64,000 bases of DNA from NCBI GenBank assembly GCA_001898505.1, contig MKTZ01000025.1, positions 310,001 through 374,000 of the forward strand, in the 5' to 3' direction. The stretch comes from Sphingobacteriales bacterium 50-39. GTDB lineage: Bacteria; Bacteroidota; Bacteroidia; Chitinophagales; Chitinophagaceae. The notes beneath the pieces are model-generated. The model did no database searches, was not told the origin of the DNA, and saw only the letters and a list, made by a program, of their open reading frames with translations. This document shows positions 613 to 6,799 of the stretch, piece by piece; within the stretch, counting starts at the first letter, position 1; every line of letters begins with the position of its first letter. The position numbers were made by a program, and so were the translations under genes.

Positions 613-948
613 TCACCTTACCCAAACGACTTTCCCTTCCCTTATCAGAAAATGGCTTCCGCAGCCCGCCTTCGCCCAGATAGATGGAGATATAGTGATC
701 CTGCCTTTTTTAACAGAAAAAGACCAGCAGGGCCTGGTATCCTTCAAGAGATTCAAACATATCGTTGTTTTGCAACCGCAGGGACACTTAAAAAACAGTG
801 AATCCGCCTCCAACCCGTCCTGCACAATATAAATAATTCCTTTATGTATCCTGATTGGATTGTGCGCCTTCATACGGTAACGATATCGCGGTTTGAATAA
901 AGACATCGTAGCCGACAATAGACGGTCCAGGCGCTTCTTTTTTTTCAT
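613..948 (-). CDS. DUF6527-like zinc-ribbon protein, last gene of the ubiquitin-like operon
   Basis: A 111-residue basic protein. The centre carries CPCGC (C55, C57, C59) and the C-terminus CGSHF (C96, H99) followed by I-R-E-G-K-V-V-W. This arrangement of a cysteine cluster, a Ser-Ile-Trp segment and a terminal GSHF/W-x-x-x-G-x-[IV]-x-W motif is what I recognise as DUF6527. From memory, DUF6527 proteins recur beside prokaryotic Ubl/E1/E2 operons; I could not search to confirm this. The Cys/His set looks metal-binding, so a structural zinc or a zinc-dependent hydrolase or ligase-adaptor role are all possible. The ATG shares ATGA (945-948) with the stop of the E1-like gene, which implies translational coupling and joint function. 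A 77-residue plus-strand frame across the same bases is a shadow. Confidence 0.75.
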   Translation of the reverse strand: MKKKKRLDRLLSATMSLFKPRYRYRMKAHNPIRIHKGIIYIVQDGLEADSLFFKCPCGCKTTICLNLLKDTRPCWSFSVKKGRITISPSIWAKAGCGSHFLIREGKVVWVR

Positions 949-2354
949 AATCTATCGAGATCTGGCATTCGTAAAAAGGGTTTATAGTCCCCTCGGCCCG
1001 TGAAACGGCTGGCCAACTCATCCACGGGAAATTTTTTCTCGGCCCGGTTTTCAATACAATTAGCAGCATAGTCCATCAACATTCTCGCATAGTCTCCAGG
1101 GGAATCCTCCTTGAAGGGTGTATCGTGTAATCGGTTCAGGCTGTCAATGACGCTCATACTGCTGATCAGCATGTTAACGGGAAGTACAGCAGGACGCTCC
1201 ACATTCGTATTACGGATATAGCCGACCTTCAACCTTTCCTGATACTCCTCCGGAGACCGGCGCGCCAGCCCCTCCGCTTCCAGCAGCTCTGCAGAGTATG
1301 CGTTCCTGCTTAACAGAGACGACATGCCTGGCTGGATATAGTGCACGACAGCGCTGATGCTGTCGATCCCACCTTTACCATCGGCATTGAGTTGAACGCC
1401 CAGGTCGAAATAAGGAATGAGGTAGAAATTAGCTAGCAGGCCCAAAAGATGCCGACCTTCAGCGCTGTCCACGCAGCCAAACAAAACGTCACAACGGATT
1501 AGATGTAACAGTGCTTCCTTCGAATCAAACAAGCTGACAGGATACGAGTAGACGCGCGTCGCCAATTCCACCCCTTCAATTGCAGCTTTCAACATATCGC
1601 TTTTGTTCATTCTCTGCCGAACATCCTCTTTCCTCGACTGAATGATCCGGTTGAGGTTTTTATCCTCCACAGGCTTTGGATCGACTAAAACTAATTCTCC
1701 AACCCCCAGCCGGAATAATTGCTCAATTGTCGGGCTCCCCGTCCCTGAACATCCTACTACCCCGACCCGCAGGGTCTTGACCAGGGCATGAGTAGCCTCG
1801 CCGAAAACCTGCCTGTTTCGAAGAGAAAAGCCATCGCGATCCGCTTCAGCAGAGGAGCCGTTTGTGGATCTCCAAATTCGTATCTGATCACCAGCCATGC
1901 TCACGGTATCAAAAGGAATTTTCTGCAGGTCATGAGTAACGATCCTTCCAAAGACTTTTCCGTCCGGCAGCATGATGGCGGAGCCATGCACTTGGTCGGT
2001 CTCACTCCAACTATATACCGTCGAGAAAAATTCGTCATCAGAAGCGTCGTCGATATGGGAAAACCGGTTGTATCCTCCAGGGTGGCTGTGAATCTTAAGT
2101 AGGGCGAATTTACGCTTCTCCACCTCTTCCAGCAATGGCAAGACCCGCTTTGTGCTCCAGGTGATACGGTCAGGCGTTCTGTCACATTCCTCATAGGGGA
2201 TAAGCACCACCTGGTGCGCCAGTAAGATGGAGCAGCCTTCGCCTTCATGGCGCCCGCAAAGCACAACAGCAACGGCCTCCAATCCATCCCCTGGGAAAAG
2301 ATGCTGACGGAGCTGCTCGTGAAATTTTCCAGGGAATCTAAGCTCGTAGGTCAT
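945..2354 (-). CDS. JAMM peptidase-E1-like (ThiF) fusion protein of a prokaryotic ubiquitin-like system
   Basis: 469 residues with two domains. Residues about 20-150 are a JAB/MPN metalloprotease: E26 and the JAMM motif H89-S-H91-P with S99-x-x-D102 are all present, so it should bind zinc and cut isopeptide or Ubl-tail bonds. Residues about 190-345 are an E1/ThiF adenylation domain: nucleotide loop GVVGCSGTGS (198-207), D225 of LVDP, N233-L-N-R236 (the arginine finger) and D296 of GCVDS. The place where relatives carry Cys pairs after the adenylation core reads PGMSSLLSR (342-350), with serines. The start overlaps the upstream Ubl-E2 gene by 17 bases and the stop overlaps DUF6527 by 4. The expected activity is ATP-dependent activation of the Ubl plus removal of it from substrates. 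JAB-ThiF fusions with E2-like neighbours are known from published surveys of bacterial Ub-like operons. Confidence 0.88.
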   Translation of the reverse strand: MTYELRFPGKFHEQLRQHLFPGDGLEAVAVVLCGRHEGEGCSILLAHQVVLIPYEECDRTPDRITWSTKRVLPLLEEVEKRKFALLKIHSHPGGYNRFSHIDDASDDEFFSTVYSWSETDQVHGSAIMLPDGKVFGRIVTHDLQKIPFDTVSMAGDQIRIWRSTNGSSAEADRDGFSLRNRQVFGEATHALVKTLRVGVVGCSGTGSPTIEQLFRLGVGELVLVDPKPVEDKNLNRIIQSRKEDVRQRMNKSDMLKAAIEGVELATRVYSYPVSLFDSKEALLHLIRCDVLFGCVDSAEGRHLLGLLANFYLIPYFDLGVQLNADGKGGIDSISAVVHYIQPGMSSLLSRNAYSAELLEAEGLARRSPEEYQERLKVGYIRNTNVERPAVLPVNMLISSMSVIDSLNRLHDTPFKEDSPGDYARMLMDYAANCIENRAEKKFPVDELASRFTGRGDYKPFLRMPDLDRL

Positions 2355-3138
2355 GGGCAGGTTTTTTAATGAATTCCTGTTTAAGCCACATTTCGGCTAA
2401 TGGCACATGTGTACTCAGGTTATCCACGCCGGGGCGCCAGGGGTTGCCGGCGGTCCGATGTCTCGACCACTGCTGGAAGCCAACACCTGTTATCGTGAGG
2501 GGGCTGACGGCGCCGATAGCGATACCATCTGTACGCGAAAGCGCCGGACTAAAATAAAGCATATCGAGTTGAGCATCAGGGTAGTTTGGTGTTATCCTGA
2601 CCCCGAGCAAGACCCTTTCCTTATTATAGCCGGTTGGTATCGTGTAACTATGGATCAACACCCATTGCGCCTGCCCATCCTGAACGGTCTCCCATGGAAG
2701 CTTCAGGCTATTCAGGTATTCCTCGTCCTCTTCCGGGAGCGAAAAATCCCTTTTCAGGGACTCTTCGCTTTCACCTTCCGTATGCTCATTCTTGATCGTC
2801 TTGAACTTCTCGATGCCCTTAGCGGTAAAATCGACCTCCTGGTTAGGCTCGATCGTCACCCAGTTCCCATGGATTTTTTGCCTTAACATGTATTCCGCGG
2901 GCGTCTTTCCTGCTTTTTCCAGAATCTGCGCTCCGGTCATGATATGGTGATGGGTGATGTAATACTCGTGGTCCACTTTGTAGCGATATTTGTGTCCATG
3001 TTGGGGCTGATGACCGTGTTTAAAGCATAATTCAATGTCGATAACCTCGCCCTCTGGAGTGATAATAATTATTTCTTCGTTCATATATAGAATTTTAAGT
3101 TTAAAAGAATCTACCTGTTTTACTGGAATACCCTTCAC
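2338..3138 (-). CDS. Multiubiquitin-type Ubl domain fused to a cysteine-less E2-like domain
   Basis: 266 residues from a GTG start that overlaps the preceding micro-ORF stop (GTGA). Residues about 49-117 are a beta-grasp domain of the multiubiquitin type, with the signature TGAQILEKAGKTPAEY and an E-V-D-F-T-x-x-G-I-E-x-F ending. Residues about 135-258 match the prokaryotic E2 family E (Prok-E2_E): LPWE, V-x-I-T-P-x-Y-P near 181-187, Q-W-S-R-H-R at 223-228 and N-P-W-R-P-G-x-D at 232-239. The only cysteine in the whole protein is C38, ahead of the Ubl domain, so the E2 domain has no thioester cysteine. No Gly-Gly end follows the Ubl domain. The gene is followed by the JAMM-E1 gene with a 17-base overlap. 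An internal ATG (residue 19) is an alternative start that would remove C38's upstream flank but not the Ubl domain. Confidence 0.82.
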   Translation of the reverse strand: MKGIPVKQVDSFKLKILYMNEEIIIITPEGEVIDIELCFKHGHQPQHGHKYRYKVDHEYYITHHHIMTGAQILEKAGKTPAEYMLRQKIHGNWVTIEPNQEVDFTAKGIEKFKTIKNEHTEGESEESLKRDFSLPEEDEEYLNSLKLPWETVQDGQAQWVLIHSYTIPTGYNKERVLLGVRITPNYPDAQLDMLYFSPALSRTDGIAIGAVSPLTITGVGFQQWSRHRTAGNPWRPGVDNLSTHVPLAEMWLKQEFIKKPAHDLRA

Positions 3139-3215
3139 TTTGGTGGCGAATTGTCGCCCATGGAGGGGATTTCCTCAATCAACTTATAGTCAGTATATTG
3201 TGTTTGCCGTGCCAT
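3135..3215 (-). CDS. 26-residue micro-ORF leading the Ubl operon
   Basis: An ATG at 3215 opens a frame of 26 codons ending in TGA at 3137-3135. The stop overlaps the GTG start of the Ubl-E2 gene (GTGA, 3138-3135). The peptide begins MARQTQYTDYKL and ends NSPPK; it is hydrophilic with no membrane segment. It may be a real small component, or a leader whose translation couples to the weak GTG start of the next gene. Upstream bases are AT-rich with an AGGA about 8 bases before the ATG. I recognise no family. The 4-base overlap matches the junction style of the rest of this operon and is the main support. Confidence 0.4.
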   Translation of the reverse strand: MARQTQYTDYKLIEEIPSMGDNSPPK

Positions 3216-3324
3216 ATAATTAGTCCTATTTAGAGCGATTGTCCGCCCTTCACAGGATATTACCGTGCTACGAACAAATTCCCCCCGCAGGGGAAAAATT
3301 ATTTTTTACGGTAAATACCAGTAC
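3216..3324. promoter_or_regulatory. Divergent control region between the Ubl operon and the regulatory cassette
   Basis: 109 bases separate the micro-ORF start (3215, leftward) from the ATG at 3325 (rightward). A perfect inverted repeat TTCCCC-N5-GGGGAA lies at about 3280-3297, followed by an A/T tract. It is a plausible operator for a repressor encoded in the divergent cassette. No clear TAnnTTTG element was found on either strand here, so the promoters are not defined. Confidence 0.4.
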
Positions 3325-3921
3325 ATGGATGACCCAGGTAAATATTATGACGCGAACCGCCGCAAGCTGGAAGGTATAGACGACTCCCAGTGGACTAGCG
3401 CGTTGAAAAAATGCCAGGAACATCTTCGTATCAAGCTAAAGCGGCGAGCTACTTTTGGTGCCCATGCGGAAAAGCGGCTGGGGGAGGATCCTTTCGACTA
3501 CTATACTCATTATGCATACAATGCTATAATTTCCGGGAATTGGGAATGGAAGGAGGGTCGTACTCTGGCACAACAAATGATCCTTATCATCGATAGCACG
3601 ATGAGCACGGAGGTAGAAAAGACAAGAACAGGGAAGGAACCCGAGATGCTGAATGGGAATTTCGACGATTATTTCTATTCAGACGAGCCCTTGCCTGATG
3701 AGTTCGAATTCACCAAGGAGATCCTGATCAATAAACAGATCAGCGTGCTGGAAGAGGCCATCAAGGGAGATCAGGACCTGGAGGTATACTGGGAATGCAT
3801 TAAGGACAAAATGAAAAGAGCGGAGATCGCTGCATTCATGGAAATAACCGTTAAAAAGCAAGATAAACTCCGGGAAAAGCTCATCGATAAGGTACGCCAA
3901 TCTCCTTATTTTGAAATGTAA
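3325..3921 (+). CDS. Sigma-70-like/HTH regulatory protein of the Ubl island
   Basis: A GTG 60 bases upstream (3265) would add 20 residues; I chose the ATG at 3325 because the GTG-ATG stretch encodes an unlikely basic and hydrophobic N-terminus and overlaps the inverted repeat. The product is about 198 residues. Residues about 55-100 (DYYTHYAYNAIISGN, then L-A-Q-Q-M) resemble the helical region 2-like part of small Bacteroidota sigma-like proteins. The C-terminal KRAEIAAFMEITVKKQDKLR matches the pattern of a sigma region 4 helix-turn-helix (R-x-E-I-A-x-x-x-x-I-x-x). It heads a plus-strand operon with a helical protein (5-base gap) and an ImmA/IrrE-type peptidase, and is transcribed away from the Ubl operon. 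It is probably the transcription regulator of that operon. The assignment is by pattern only. Confidence 0.5.
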   Translation: MDDPGKYYDANRRKLEGIDDSQWTSALKKCQEHLRIKLKRRATFGAHAEKRLGEDPFDYYTHYAYNAIISGNWEWKEGRTLAQQMILIIDSTMSTEVEKTRTGKEPEMLNGNFDDYFYSDEPLPDEFEFTKEILINKQISVLEEAIKGDQDLEVYWECIKDKMKRAEIAAFMEITVKKQDKLREKLIDKVRQSPYFEM

Positions 3922-3926
3922 TCGCC

Positions 3927-4331
3927 ATGGCAAACACAAATGCGGAAATACTAAACCATTTTTATAGGCTCCTGGCCGAGGTCAACTTCCACCAGGACGA
4001 AAAGGATATGCAACAAGCGGCAGATCCTGCAGGCGATGCGTTCATTCAGAAACACCTTCGGCAGATCAAGCTGCTGACAGCTCAATACAAGGCACGAGAA
4101 ACCAGAAGTCGCTACAAGGAGGTTATAGCACAATTCAGACGGCTGAAAGAGCTGGGTGCGGACCAGCTGAAAAAGCTGCTTACACCCGAACAGGCTCGTC
4201 AGTTCCAGCCCCTGTTTAGCCGGTTTGAAGATCTCTCGAAAAAGGATGAGGCGTCCATTTTGGAGGATCAGGAATTACTACAGCTATTCAGTCTATTAAA
4301 AGATAAACAGGACACTTCCGACAATGAATAA
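3927..4331 (+). CDS. Small helical protein, unknown function, between regulator and metallopeptidase
   Basis: 134 residues, strongly charged and predicted helical throughout (heptad-like runs such as QFRRLKELGADQLKKLL), without cysteine, signal peptide or membrane segment. It starts 5 bases after the sigma-like gene and ends 8 bases inside the metallopeptidase gene, so the three are one operon. Possible roles are an anti-sigma-like partner, a linker between regulator and protease, or the protease substrate. None can be chosen from the sequence. I do not recognise the family. Confidence 0.7.
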   Translation: MANTNAEILNHFYRLLAEVNFHQDEKDMQQAADPAGDAFIQKHLRQIKLLTAQYKARETRSRYKEVIAQFRRLKELGADQLKKLLTPEQARQFQPLFSRFEDLSKKDEASILEDQELLQLFSLLKDKQDTSDNE

Positions 4332-5091
4332 TGCCGCGAAAGCCGCCCGGGAACTGTTGTTGTCCCTTGGTTGGTGCCAACCGAGCGATCTGAGCATGGA
4401 AGAAATTGCCTGGGCCTGCGGACTCATGGTCACCAGAAAGGAAATGGACGGTTGCGAAGGGCGGATCATAATGAGCCGGGACGGCGGCATCATCAGCATT
4501 AATGCGTCTATCGACTATCAGCCAAAGATCAATTTTATCCTCGCACATGAAATTGGGCATAGCTGCCTCCACGGTAACATTCAACCTCTCTTTGCCGATA
4601 ACAAGCATTCTTTGGCGGAATGGTATGCAAAAGGGGAGCACGAGAAAGAGGCCAACGACTTCGCTACTGAGCTCCTCATGCCCTCTGAAGCCTTTGCGAG
4701 GCGGGTAAAGGGCCAAAAGCCAAGTGTAAACGTTATAGGAGATGCTGCGACTTATTTTGGGGCATCCAGGACAGCTGCCTTTCTACGCTATCGTGATCTC
4801 GGAGATTTCCCGGTTATGGTGATCCTCGTTGAAAACGGTGTCGTTAAATGGAAAAGCCATTCTGAGGATTTCCCATTCAAATGGCTTTCGATCAATACAC
4901 CGGTTCCTGCCTTTACCGTAGCCGGCGACTATTTCCATCGCAACAGCAAGGAACCTGGCCCCGAAAAGGTATTTGCGATTGATTGGTTCCCAGACGACTT
5001 CAACGCGCAGCGCAATCCTAAACAGCAATTGTGGGAGCAATGCTCCCGCTTTTCGGACGATGCCATTGTTTCTTGTATATGGACTCCTTAA
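4324..5091 (+). CDS. ImmA/IrrE-family (COG2856-type) zinc metallopeptidase
   Basis: 255 residues. The zinc motif is A-H75-E76-I-G-H79-S within INFILAHEIGHS, followed by the third-ligand helix KEANDFATELLMP (E near 103), both typical of ImmA/IrrE proteins. There is no N-terminal XRE helix-turn-helix, so DNA binding must come from a partner, presumably the sigma-like protein two genes upstream. In ICEBs1 (ImmA), Deinococcus (IrrE) and CBASS (CapP) such peptidases cleave a repressor on DNA damage or related signals. By analogy this one could release the Ubl operon from repression. Its start overlaps the helical gene by 8 bases. The C-terminal 100 residues (VMVILVENGVVKWKS onward) form the usual sensor-like second domain. 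Confidence 0.85.
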   Translation: MNNAAKAARELLLSLGWCQPSDLSMEEIAWACGLMVTRKEMDGCEGRIIMSRDGGIISINASIDYQPKINFILAHEIGHSCLHGNIQPLFADNKHSLAEWYAKGEHEKEANDFATELLMPSEAFARRVKGQKPSVNVIGDAATYFGASRTAAFLRYRDLGDFPVMVILVENGVVKWKSHSEDFPFKWLSINTPVPAFTVAGDYFHRNSKEPGPEKVFAIDWFPDDFNAQRNPKQQLWEQCSRFSDDAIVSCIWTP

Positions 5092-5279: not shown

Positions 5280-6488
5280 TTAATATTTAAGAAACAGCGG
5301 TTGAATATCATGAAGTATTTTTTTATCCAATAGTTTAGCATAATGCTGAGTAGCGGAAATATTTCTATGACCCAGCATCTTTGAAACACTTTCGATCGGG
5401 ACATGATTATTTAAAGTAACGGTTGTCGCGAAGGTGTGCCTTGCTGTGTGAAAAGTCAGATCTTTTCTGATCCCACAGCAATCAGCAATTTCTTTCAAAT
5501 AGCTATTCATTCGTTGGTTACTTAACACTGGGAGAAGCCGGTTTTTCGCCTTACAATAGGGATGCTCCTGGTACTTCTCGATAATTCGAAAGGCTGCCGG
5601 CAACAGGGGGACGTTTGAAGGGTTTGATGTCTTTGTGCGGTTGACTGCTATCCATGGTCGGTTATCTTGATCGGTAAAGACATTTTGTGGTCCTATTTTA
5701 CGCACATCTGCGTAAGCAAGACCGGTAAAACAGCAAAAAAGGAAGATGTCTCTTACCCGGGTGAGCCGAGCAATGGAGAACTCTTTGTTCATGAGAGCCC
5801 GTAATTCTTCTTCATGAAGAAATACCCGTTGGGTCTGGACAATTTTTGCGCGGTACATGACAAAAGGATCCTTCTTTAGCCATCCATTCGCTATACAATG
5901 GCGGATTATTTTTCTGAAATTTCTGAGATACTTAACGGTGGTATTGTTGGAACAGCCGCGGATGTGACGAAGAAAGAAATCGAACTCTGCAATAAAATCA
6001 TGATCGATTCGCAGGATATCCATATCGGCCGCACCGTATTTCCACATCATAAATTCAATGGTGTGGGACAAACTGGTCTTATATCTTTCCAATGTGCCAG
6101 CAGCAAATTCTTTGGGAATGAGATCGGCCATTCGGCGGTTGTGTTGTTGGAAAATGTCGACGAGCATTCTGGGCTCCTCTTCAACCCCTAAATAATGATT
6201 CTTCAGCGATAAGGCAGTGATGGTTTCTTTTCGCCGGACCATTGCGTGATACGCTTCCAGTAGATCAAACTCTATTAAGCTGAGATCGTTATTGAGGCGC
6301 TTTGCATTTTTGGAAGAGCCTTTCATCCTGCCCGTCCTTGGCATCCAGGAATTTCGTTCAACTGATTTACCAGTGGACACCTCGGCTCTCTTGCCGTCGA
6401 CAGTAATACGCAAGTAAATTGCAAGAGGTTTGCGTTGGTGTTTCTTGTTCTTTTTTAAGAAAAAAAGATGGTGAAGTTTGGGGTGCAT
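5280..6488 (-). CDS. Tyrosine recombinase/integrase of the genomic island
   Basis: About 402 residues from the ATG at 6488 (a GTG at 6515 would add 9). The N-terminal arm-binding domain shows LAIYLRITVDGKRAEVSTG, typical of Bacteroidota integrases, then a SAM-like core-binding domain, then the catalytic domain. Catalytic residues seen are HTARHTF (H-x-x-R), LGHRNISATQHY with the nucleophile Tyr, and the second conserved His in LGH. The first catalytic arginine position reads F-T-G-L-A-Y-A-D-V, with no Arg, as in the IntDOT-like branch. The gene stops near the cargo and starts about 225 bases from the 3' end of a tRNA-Ser gene, the usual place for an element that integrates into a tRNA 3' end. 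Confidence 0.93.
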   Translation of the reverse strand: MHPKLHHLFFLKKNKKHQRKPLAIYLRITVDGKRAEVSTGKSVERNSWMPRTGRMKGSSKNAKRLNNDLSLIEFDLLEAYHAMVRRKETITALSLKNHYLGVEEEPRMLVDIFQQHNRRMADLIPKEFAAGTLERYKTSLSHTIEFMMWKYGAADMDILRIDHDFIAEFDFFLRHIRGCSNNTTVKYLRNFRKIIRHCIANGWLKKDPFVMYRAKIVQTQRVFLHEEELRALMNKEFSIARLTRVRDIFLFCCFTGLAYADVRKIGPQNVFTDQDNRPWIAVNRTKTSNPSNVPLLPAAFRIIEKYQEHPYCKAKNRLLPVLSNQRMNSYLKEIADCCGIRKDLTFHTARHTFATTVTLNNHVPIESVSKMLGHRNISATQHYAKLLDKKILHDIQPLFLKY

Positions 6489-6712
6489 GGTGAGAGATTT
6501 AGTGAACACCAACACTACATCTCTTACTAGTCAAAACAATTCAAATTAATCCAATCGGTGCGTACGAGGAAGTGACCATTAACGAACCGAATAACGAACC
6601 TTCTTGATTCATTTTGCATCAATTTGTGTGCATTTGATGCATAGGTTCGGGAGATTCCAAGTGATTCAAAATCCTTCACAAATCACTGATAATCAATTGT
6701 ATATAAGATTAG

Positions 6713-6799
6713 CGGAGAGGGAGGGATTCGAACCCTCGGTACAGTTGCCCGCACAACGGTTTTCGAGACCGTCCCGATCGACCACTCTGGCACCTCTCC
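6713..6799 (-). tRNA. tRNA-Ser (anticodon CGA)
   Basis: Read on the minus strand: acceptor GGAGAGG (6799-6793) pairs with CCTCTCC (6720-6714), discriminator G at 6713, anticodon stem ACGGT/ACCGT around the loop CTCGAAA (anticodon CGA, reading UCG), a long class II variable arm, and the T-arm GAGGG-TTCGAAT-CCCTC. Length is 87 nt with no encoded CCA. Its 3' end faces the integrase, so it is the likely attachment site; the integrating element would have restored the 3' half. Confidence 0.96.

Follow-up and report, generated by a model that had tools for sequence, protein, structure and literature searches.

Identity of the operon

Three overlapping genes on the minus strand of a 64,000-nucleotide stretch from Sphingobacteriales bacterium 50-39 (assembly GCA_001898505.1, contig MKTZ01000025.1, positions 310,001 to 374,000; hereafter the window) encode a ubiquitin-like (Ubl) domain fused to an E2-like domain, a JAMM peptidase fused to an E1-like adenylation domain, and a DUF6527 protein. 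This arrangement raises the question of which pathway the genes form and how a Ubl that runs on into its own E2, with no Gly-Gly tail, could be put to use. Judged by sequence comparison, the operon is a complete copy of the bacterial ubiquitination-like (Bub) pathway in its fused form, in which the JAMM peptidase most likely cuts the Ubl off the E2 at a junction glycine before use. The features of the operon are the following:

613-948, minus strand: DUF6527 protein of 111 residues (Pfam DUF6527, E-value 6.2e-22)
945-2354, minus strand: BubCD of 469 residues, JAMM peptidase (about 2004-2321) and E1-like adenylation domain (about 1392-1814, Pfam)
2338-3084, minus strand: BubAB, the Ubl-E2 fusion, 248 residues from the likely ATG (Pfam Multi_ubiq and Prok-E2_E; start from alignment with relatives)
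2377-2739, minus strand: E2-like domain (BubB) with a WSRH motif and no cysteine (Pfam, residues 134-254; phmmer; Foldseek)
2773-2775, minus strand: codon of the junction glycine, Gly122 of 266 or Gly104 of 248, where the mature Ubl is predicted to end and the JAMM peptidase to cut
2791-2979, minus strand: Ubl domain of the multiubiquitin-type beta-grasp fold (Pfam, residues 54-116 of the 266-residue frame; Foldseek)
3135-3215, minus strand: micro-ORF (open reading frame) of 26 residues, judged not to be a conserved gene

The three minus-strand ORFs were present where an earlier reading of these letters without database searches (the sequence-only reading) had placed them, with overlaps of 17 and 4 bases. 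Its assignment of two fusions, Ubl-E2 and JAMM-E1, to one compact operon together with a zinc-type DUF6527 protein was borne out by Pfam, with all domain scores above the curated cut-offs: Multi_ubiq at 33.2 bits and Prok-E2_E at 115 bits (cut-off 25) on the Ubl-E2 protein, Prok-JAB at 30 bits and ThiF at 71.2 bits on the JAMM-E1 protein, and DUF6527 at 77.7 bits on the 111-residue protein. The further statement that the set could not be matched to a characterised system no longer holds. Residues 10-466 of the JAMM-E1 protein (469 in all) were matched to the solved Citrobacter BubCD (phmmer against the PDB, E-value 2.9e-69) and the E2 half of the fusion to Citrobacter BubB (phmmer, 2e-27), and the operon type corresponds to row 6e of the survey by Iyer et al. 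2006 (PMC1779556), as given in the part of that paper drawn on here. That row has the same layout, including the Ubl-E2 fusion, recorded there “in some species” beside a solo Ubl in one, and the cysteine-less E2. The fused layout is thus already known, and the additions made here are the junction glycine and a sigma-like neighbour. The name Bub is used in a 2026 EMBO J paper, which, in the passages drawn on, counts 544 operons.

The solved Citrobacter Bub (PDB 9ea4, 9ea5, 9ea8, 9eae and 9eav; BubA 9d59 and 9d5a) resembles the window's operon in its Ubl, its cysteine-poor E2 and its JAMM-E1 fusion, and its close plasmid relatives are likewise fused and accompanied by DUF6527. It differs in phylum, the nearest relatives of the window's operon being Bacteroidota, and in the number of Ubl domains, of which Pfam finds one in the window against several in the Citrobacter relative. 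The C-terminus of its BubA corresponds to the window's junction glycine, which is internal to the window's fusion. Upstream, the Citrobacter relatives carry ATP-binding or hypothetical genes and winged helix-turn-helix (HTH) genes on the same strand, whereas the window has a CapP gene and a sigma-like gene. With Iyer row 6e, within the same part of that paper, the operon shares a Ubl or polyUbl, an E2/RWD-like domain without cysteine, a JAB-E1 fusion and a metal-binding protein Y, whose zinc spacing C-x3-C-x36 agrees with that of the DUF6527 protein; the last pair, however, is H-x2-C in the paper and C-x2-H in the window, and Bacteroidota are absent from the phyla listed there.

Census of related loci

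Relatives were gathered into 107 loci, each recruited through its E2 or its JAMM-E1 gene, which comprised the window, 13 stretches of genomes, 14 of 95 matching plasmid records and 79 from genome_contigs. The last were the distinct loci kept from at least 260 relatives found by an alignment scan of genome_contigs; a scan of this collection with a single protein alone found no relatives. A repeat copy of the window's own region (L028) was excluded, and near copies exist (L075-L078; L029 with L046), so that 107 is not a tally of independent events. Ubl and E2 were fused in 61 loci, encoded by separate genes in 42 and not assigned in four (L018, L027, L058 and L113), which stand outside the glycine count below, and DUF6527 accompanied them in 101 of the 107. 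The gene set therefore recurs in other genomes, a check that the sequence-only reading had itself proposed. Where the record title gave a phylum, ten phyla were represented, chiefly Bacteroidota, Pseudomonadota and Acidobacteriota. Members of the Prok-E2_E family occur in 4 of 58 genomes close to the window's and in 10 of 392 of its phylum. The fusion protein had matches in 95 of 72,556 plasmid records, and in 22 of these the match covered at least 80% of its length. Carriage by phages or viruses was rejected: no match was found in 50,697 phage records, and none of the 147 viral_contigs stretches that fit the pattern encodes a relative.

The window's genome holds two Bub copies. The second, on another contig (L017, G000:C11), is a longer fusion; its operon encodes DUF6527 and an E2 in one chain with three Ubl domains, and a CapP-like gene lies upstream. 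On a plasmid of Nostoc sp. C052, genes for a nucleotidyltransferase and a SAVED-domain protein, resembling a cyclic oligonucleotide-based antiphage signalling system (CBASS), lie directly downstream of the Bub operon (L041:7853-10576).

The Ubl-E2 fusion and its junction glycine

The model of the 248-residue fusion (mean predicted local distance difference test, pLDDT, 90.4; predicted template modelling score, pTM, 0.58) comprises two well-predicted domains, in agreement with the beta-grasp and E2-like halves first proposed. Its E2 half was matched by Foldseek to BubB (9eae_C, E-value 4.2e-11, target template modelling score 0.93) and its Ubl half to solved bacterial Ubls (8u38_C, 3.1e-4; BubA 9ea8_B, 2.8e-3), and no eukaryotic E2 or RWD domain was present among the best 50 of 328 matches. 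Residues 102-106, around Gly104, form the sole stretch of three or more residues with pLDDT below 50. The Ubl had been described as having no visible Gly-Gly tail; this stands in so far as Gly-Gly is absent, but the Ubl/E2 junction holds one conserved glycine.

The alignment shows glycine at this position wherever a Ubl was assigned, in all 103 loci with the window among them (61 fused, 42 split), and the same holds for all 36 fused proteins of the fusion-protein alignment. It is directly preceded by Thr-Glu in 76 of the 103 loci. The Ubl of the split loci terminates exactly at the glycine in 25 of 42 cases and extends 1 to 8 residues further in the other 17, while the 61 fusions continue into a variable linker in which Glu is the most frequent next residue (31/61). 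Both solved Citrobacter BubA chains (9d59_A and 9ea8_B) have the same glycine as their last residue. A close relative on the C. freundii plasmid pOZ181 is a 362-residue fusion that continues into the E2, and we infer that the crystallised Citrobacter BubA is fused in nature too. On the E1 tree, in which L026, L027 and L040 have long branches and hence an uncertain position, fusion and fission require at least 14 changes, at least ten of them forced by well supported branches. Fused and split forms thus appear interchangeable, for which a chain cut at the junction glycine would be the simplest reading. The invariant glycine, the split and solved Ubls that end there, and the repeated fusion and splitting together indicate that, most likely, the JAMM peptidase begins by severing the Ubl from the E2. 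A precedent is the JAB enzyme Cap3, which, according to the part of the report drawn on (PMC10097602), cuts a linear Sumo-cGAS-cGAS fusion after the cGAS C-terminus.

The JAMM residues E26, H89, H91, S99 and D102 are present in the window and conserved in 106 of 107 loci, being complete in all 61 fused and all 42 split loci; the sole degraded copy is in L027, to which no Ubl was assigned. In the E1 half, glycines 201/204/206, N233, R236, K251 and D296 are identical throughout the 107 loci, and C294 is the only near-invariant cysteine (105/107). Paired cysteines, which are zinc ligands in other E1s, are kept at the place of the window's S346/S349 in just seven of the 107 loci. The E2 half in the window has no cysteine, and 105 of 106 E2 domains carry a [W/F]S[R/I]H motif, so that a Ubl relay of the eukaryotic kind, by way of an E2 cysteine, is unlikely here.

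Gene start, micro-ORF and DUF6527 protein

The open frame of the Ubl-E2 gene (2338-3138) extends to a GTG at 3138 and would encode 266 residues. Alignment with its close relatives begins only at ATG 3084, which suggests that translation starts there and that the GTG start, together with its 4-base overlap with the micro-ORF, is probably not real. The 26-codon ORF at 3215-3135 does exist, as had been described, but its overlap would be lost with the GTG start. Its inclusion as an operon gene was rejected as well, as a search upstream of the genes in 102 relatives gave no similar peptide (best local score 27, against 35 for the 95% point of the shuffled peptide); some ATG-initiated ORF of at least 20 residues occurs in the upstream stretch of 69 of these 102.

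For the DUF6527 protein, C55, C57, C59, C96 and H99 are invariant in 48 of 48 aligned sequences, which suggests a zinc site and, with the Pfam match, upholds the zinc-site protein named in the sequence-only reading. Its model (mean pLDDT 84.9) gave 177 Foldseek matches in the PDB with E-values up to 10, none of them at or below 0.001. An E3-ligase or RING role was considered for this protein and is unsupported, there being no confident fold match in the PDB, and no mention of DUF6527 was found in the open-access papers searched.

The divergent sigma-like/CapP cassette

Three genes are encoded divergently from the operon:

3265-3921, plus strand: sigma-factor-like gene, likely start ATG 3325, 198 residues (profile match)
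3927-4331, plus strand: small protein of 134 residues, candidate sigma antagonist and CapP substrate, as its position suggests
4324-5091, plus strand: CapP-type M78 metallopeptidase of 255 residues (Pfam Peptidase_M78, 4.2e-13; PADLOC capP)

The peptidase is clearly CapP-like, being matched by the PADLOC capP model over residues 2-254 (5.8e-60). CapH+CapP pairs control immune operons in response to DNA damage; in the window, the sigma-like gene and the small protein stand in the position where a CapH gene would be looked for. How the cassette works is less certain, and two accounts were weighed. In the first, the cassette is ordinary CapH+CapP control, and the two small genes are diverged CapH-type repressors instead of a sigma factor and its antagonist. 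This account, which we consider possible though doubtful, fits the clear CapP assignment and the divergent position of the M78 protease beside the operon, as in CapH+CapP. It is also in keeping with the behaviour of the window's sigma-like protein, which alone matches no sigma family. A two-member profile (A7) matches no sigma structure, and the two sigma-like groups (17 and 6 seed sequences) show no mutual match by hhalign (probability 0.6%). Against it, neither of the window's two other divergent genes has an HTH match, and a leave-out profile, built from 15 other upstream genes with the window and its nearest relative excluded, finds the window's protein with an E-value of 3.7e-14 (49.1 bits, against 9.8 for the best of 1000 shuffles). 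The family profile, window included, matches sigma-H in the PDB (3mzy, 1.1e-9), and 11 of 17 family members match TIGR02937, the extracytoplasmic function (ECF) sigma model, at E-values up to 0.1 (best 4.4e-12).

A sigma-like gene lies divergently upstream in 40 of 107 loci, a count that is partly circular since the 23 profile seeds (17 + 6) were drawn from the same upstream genes, and a CapP-like gene is present in 21 of those 40. Downstream, where about as much sequence was searched, none of the 107 loci has one; neither this absence nor the leave-out test on the window is affected by the choice of seeds. The 134-residue protein resembles the small middle genes of other loci marginally (E-value 0.0013; the best of 500 shuffles reached 0.02).

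By analogy, the second account is put forward tentatively: damage or infection may activate the protease, which would destroy the antagonist, so that the sigma-like factor is released and can drive transcription of the Bub genes. The analogy is with type III-E CRISPR, where, in the part of the report drawn on (PMC10028731), Csx29 cleaves Csx30 and thereby frees CASP-sigma. As is proposed for the window's cassette, that defence locus pairs an ECF sigma factor with a small inhibitor and a protease, whereas the window has no CRISPR effector, its protease is CapP-type and its middle gene has a presumed role; the parallel is thus one of working, not of membership. No report of sigma-like control of Bub was found in the open-access papers searched or in the passages drawn on from one Bub paper.

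Other loci show further neighbours. The window's sigma-like gene has its closest relative in L027, a distant Bub-like locus whose JAMM site is degraded. Upstream of the Bub genes in L020, L052 and L069, a sigma-like gene is followed by a gene of about 280 codons and then by a caspase-like protease (Peptidase_C14, 3.4e-14 in L020, the locus tested). A family of about 440 residues stands beside the sigma-like genes of ten mostly alphaproteobacterial loci (L035, L074, L080, L081, L087, L096, L101, L108, L109 and L111), with a weak Pfam proteasome hint in L074 (0.023) and none in L080.

Genomic setting

A tyrosine integrase beside a tRNA-Ser gene (anticodon cga) lies to the right of the operon (window 5280-6799), and the tRNA gene is likely the integration site; a search with 16-base exact words found no second attachment-site copy of it, either in the 80 kb to the left or over the window's first 9 kb. 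A Septu pair lies about 1.4 kb to the left of the window (PtuA, 1.2e-105; PtuB, 3.8e-68; G000:C25:306747-308610, equivalent to L127:16747-18610). With the integrase and tRNA-Ser on one side and Septu on the other, the region looks like a defence or mobile island.

Proposed pathway and alternatives

The pathway that we consider probable as a whole is a fused Bub system in which BubAB is cut after Gly104, the Ubl is transferred by the E1- and E2-like domains and expression is controlled by the CapP cassette. Sequence and model directly support its domain content, the homology to solved BubA, BubB and BubCD, the intact JAMM and adenylation residues, and the invariant junction glycine with a flexible linker around it; from there we infer the cleavage, the order of steps, the targets, the induction and any anti-phage role. 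BubAB would be made as a single chain, which the JAMM half of BubCD (less likely another protease) would cut after Gly104, releasing a Ubl ending in ...HTEG and the E2. The E1 half of BubCD would then adenylate Gly104 and, with the E2-like protein, transfer the Ubl to its targets without recourse to the usual E2 cysteine. The JAMM peptidase may later remove the Ubl from its targets, DUF6527 would serve as an accessory zinc protein, and the divergent CapP-containing genes would control expression, probably in response to single-stranded DNA.

Several observations weigh against this pathway. The two residues ahead of the junction glycine vary, and the JAMM residues are equally conserved in fused and split loci, so that their conservation alone does not single out a processing role. 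A cysteine occurs somewhere in 64 of 106 E2 domains, although none is conserved in the fusion alignment. In the passages drawn on, the 2026 EMBO J paper states that protection against phage by Bub has not been demonstrated.

Alternatively, the fusion might work uncut, with the Ubl tethered to the E2 as a scaffold or regulator, or with the whole Ubl-E2 chain as the modifier. Retention of the fusion in 61 of 107 loci and the good folding of both domains within one modelled chain would agree with this, but the invariant linker glycine, at which 25 of 42 split Ubls and the solved BubA end, points to a free C-terminus and renders an uncut fusion improbable. It is very unlikely that the operon is a decayed, inactive copy: it does have a tyrosine integrase and a tRNA gene for neighbours, a frequent setting of mobile cargo, but its three frames are open, overlap as in relatives and keep complete JAMM and adenylation residues. 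The operon is hardly a defence system of the Bil or type II CBASS kind. E1, E2 and JAMM roles are common to these systems, and CBASS-type E1-E2 models of PADLOC match the E1 half weakly (best 3.3e-10), but the BubCD match is far stronger (2.9e-69), the E2 of Bil carries a catalytic cysteine that the window's E2 half lacks, and a Pfam scan of eight window proteins, the operon's three included, found no CD-NTase.

Significance

A Bacteroidota locus without annotation is now tied to a solved pathway, and the puzzle of a tail-less Ubl becomes the question of whether the JAMM peptidase cuts at Gly104. Repeated fusion and fission about one invariant glycine suggest a maturation step in bacteria like that of ubiquitin precursors. 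If the reading of the sigma-like cassette proves correct, protease-released sigma control would be a switch shared by immune operons, in Bub as in type III-E CRISPR.

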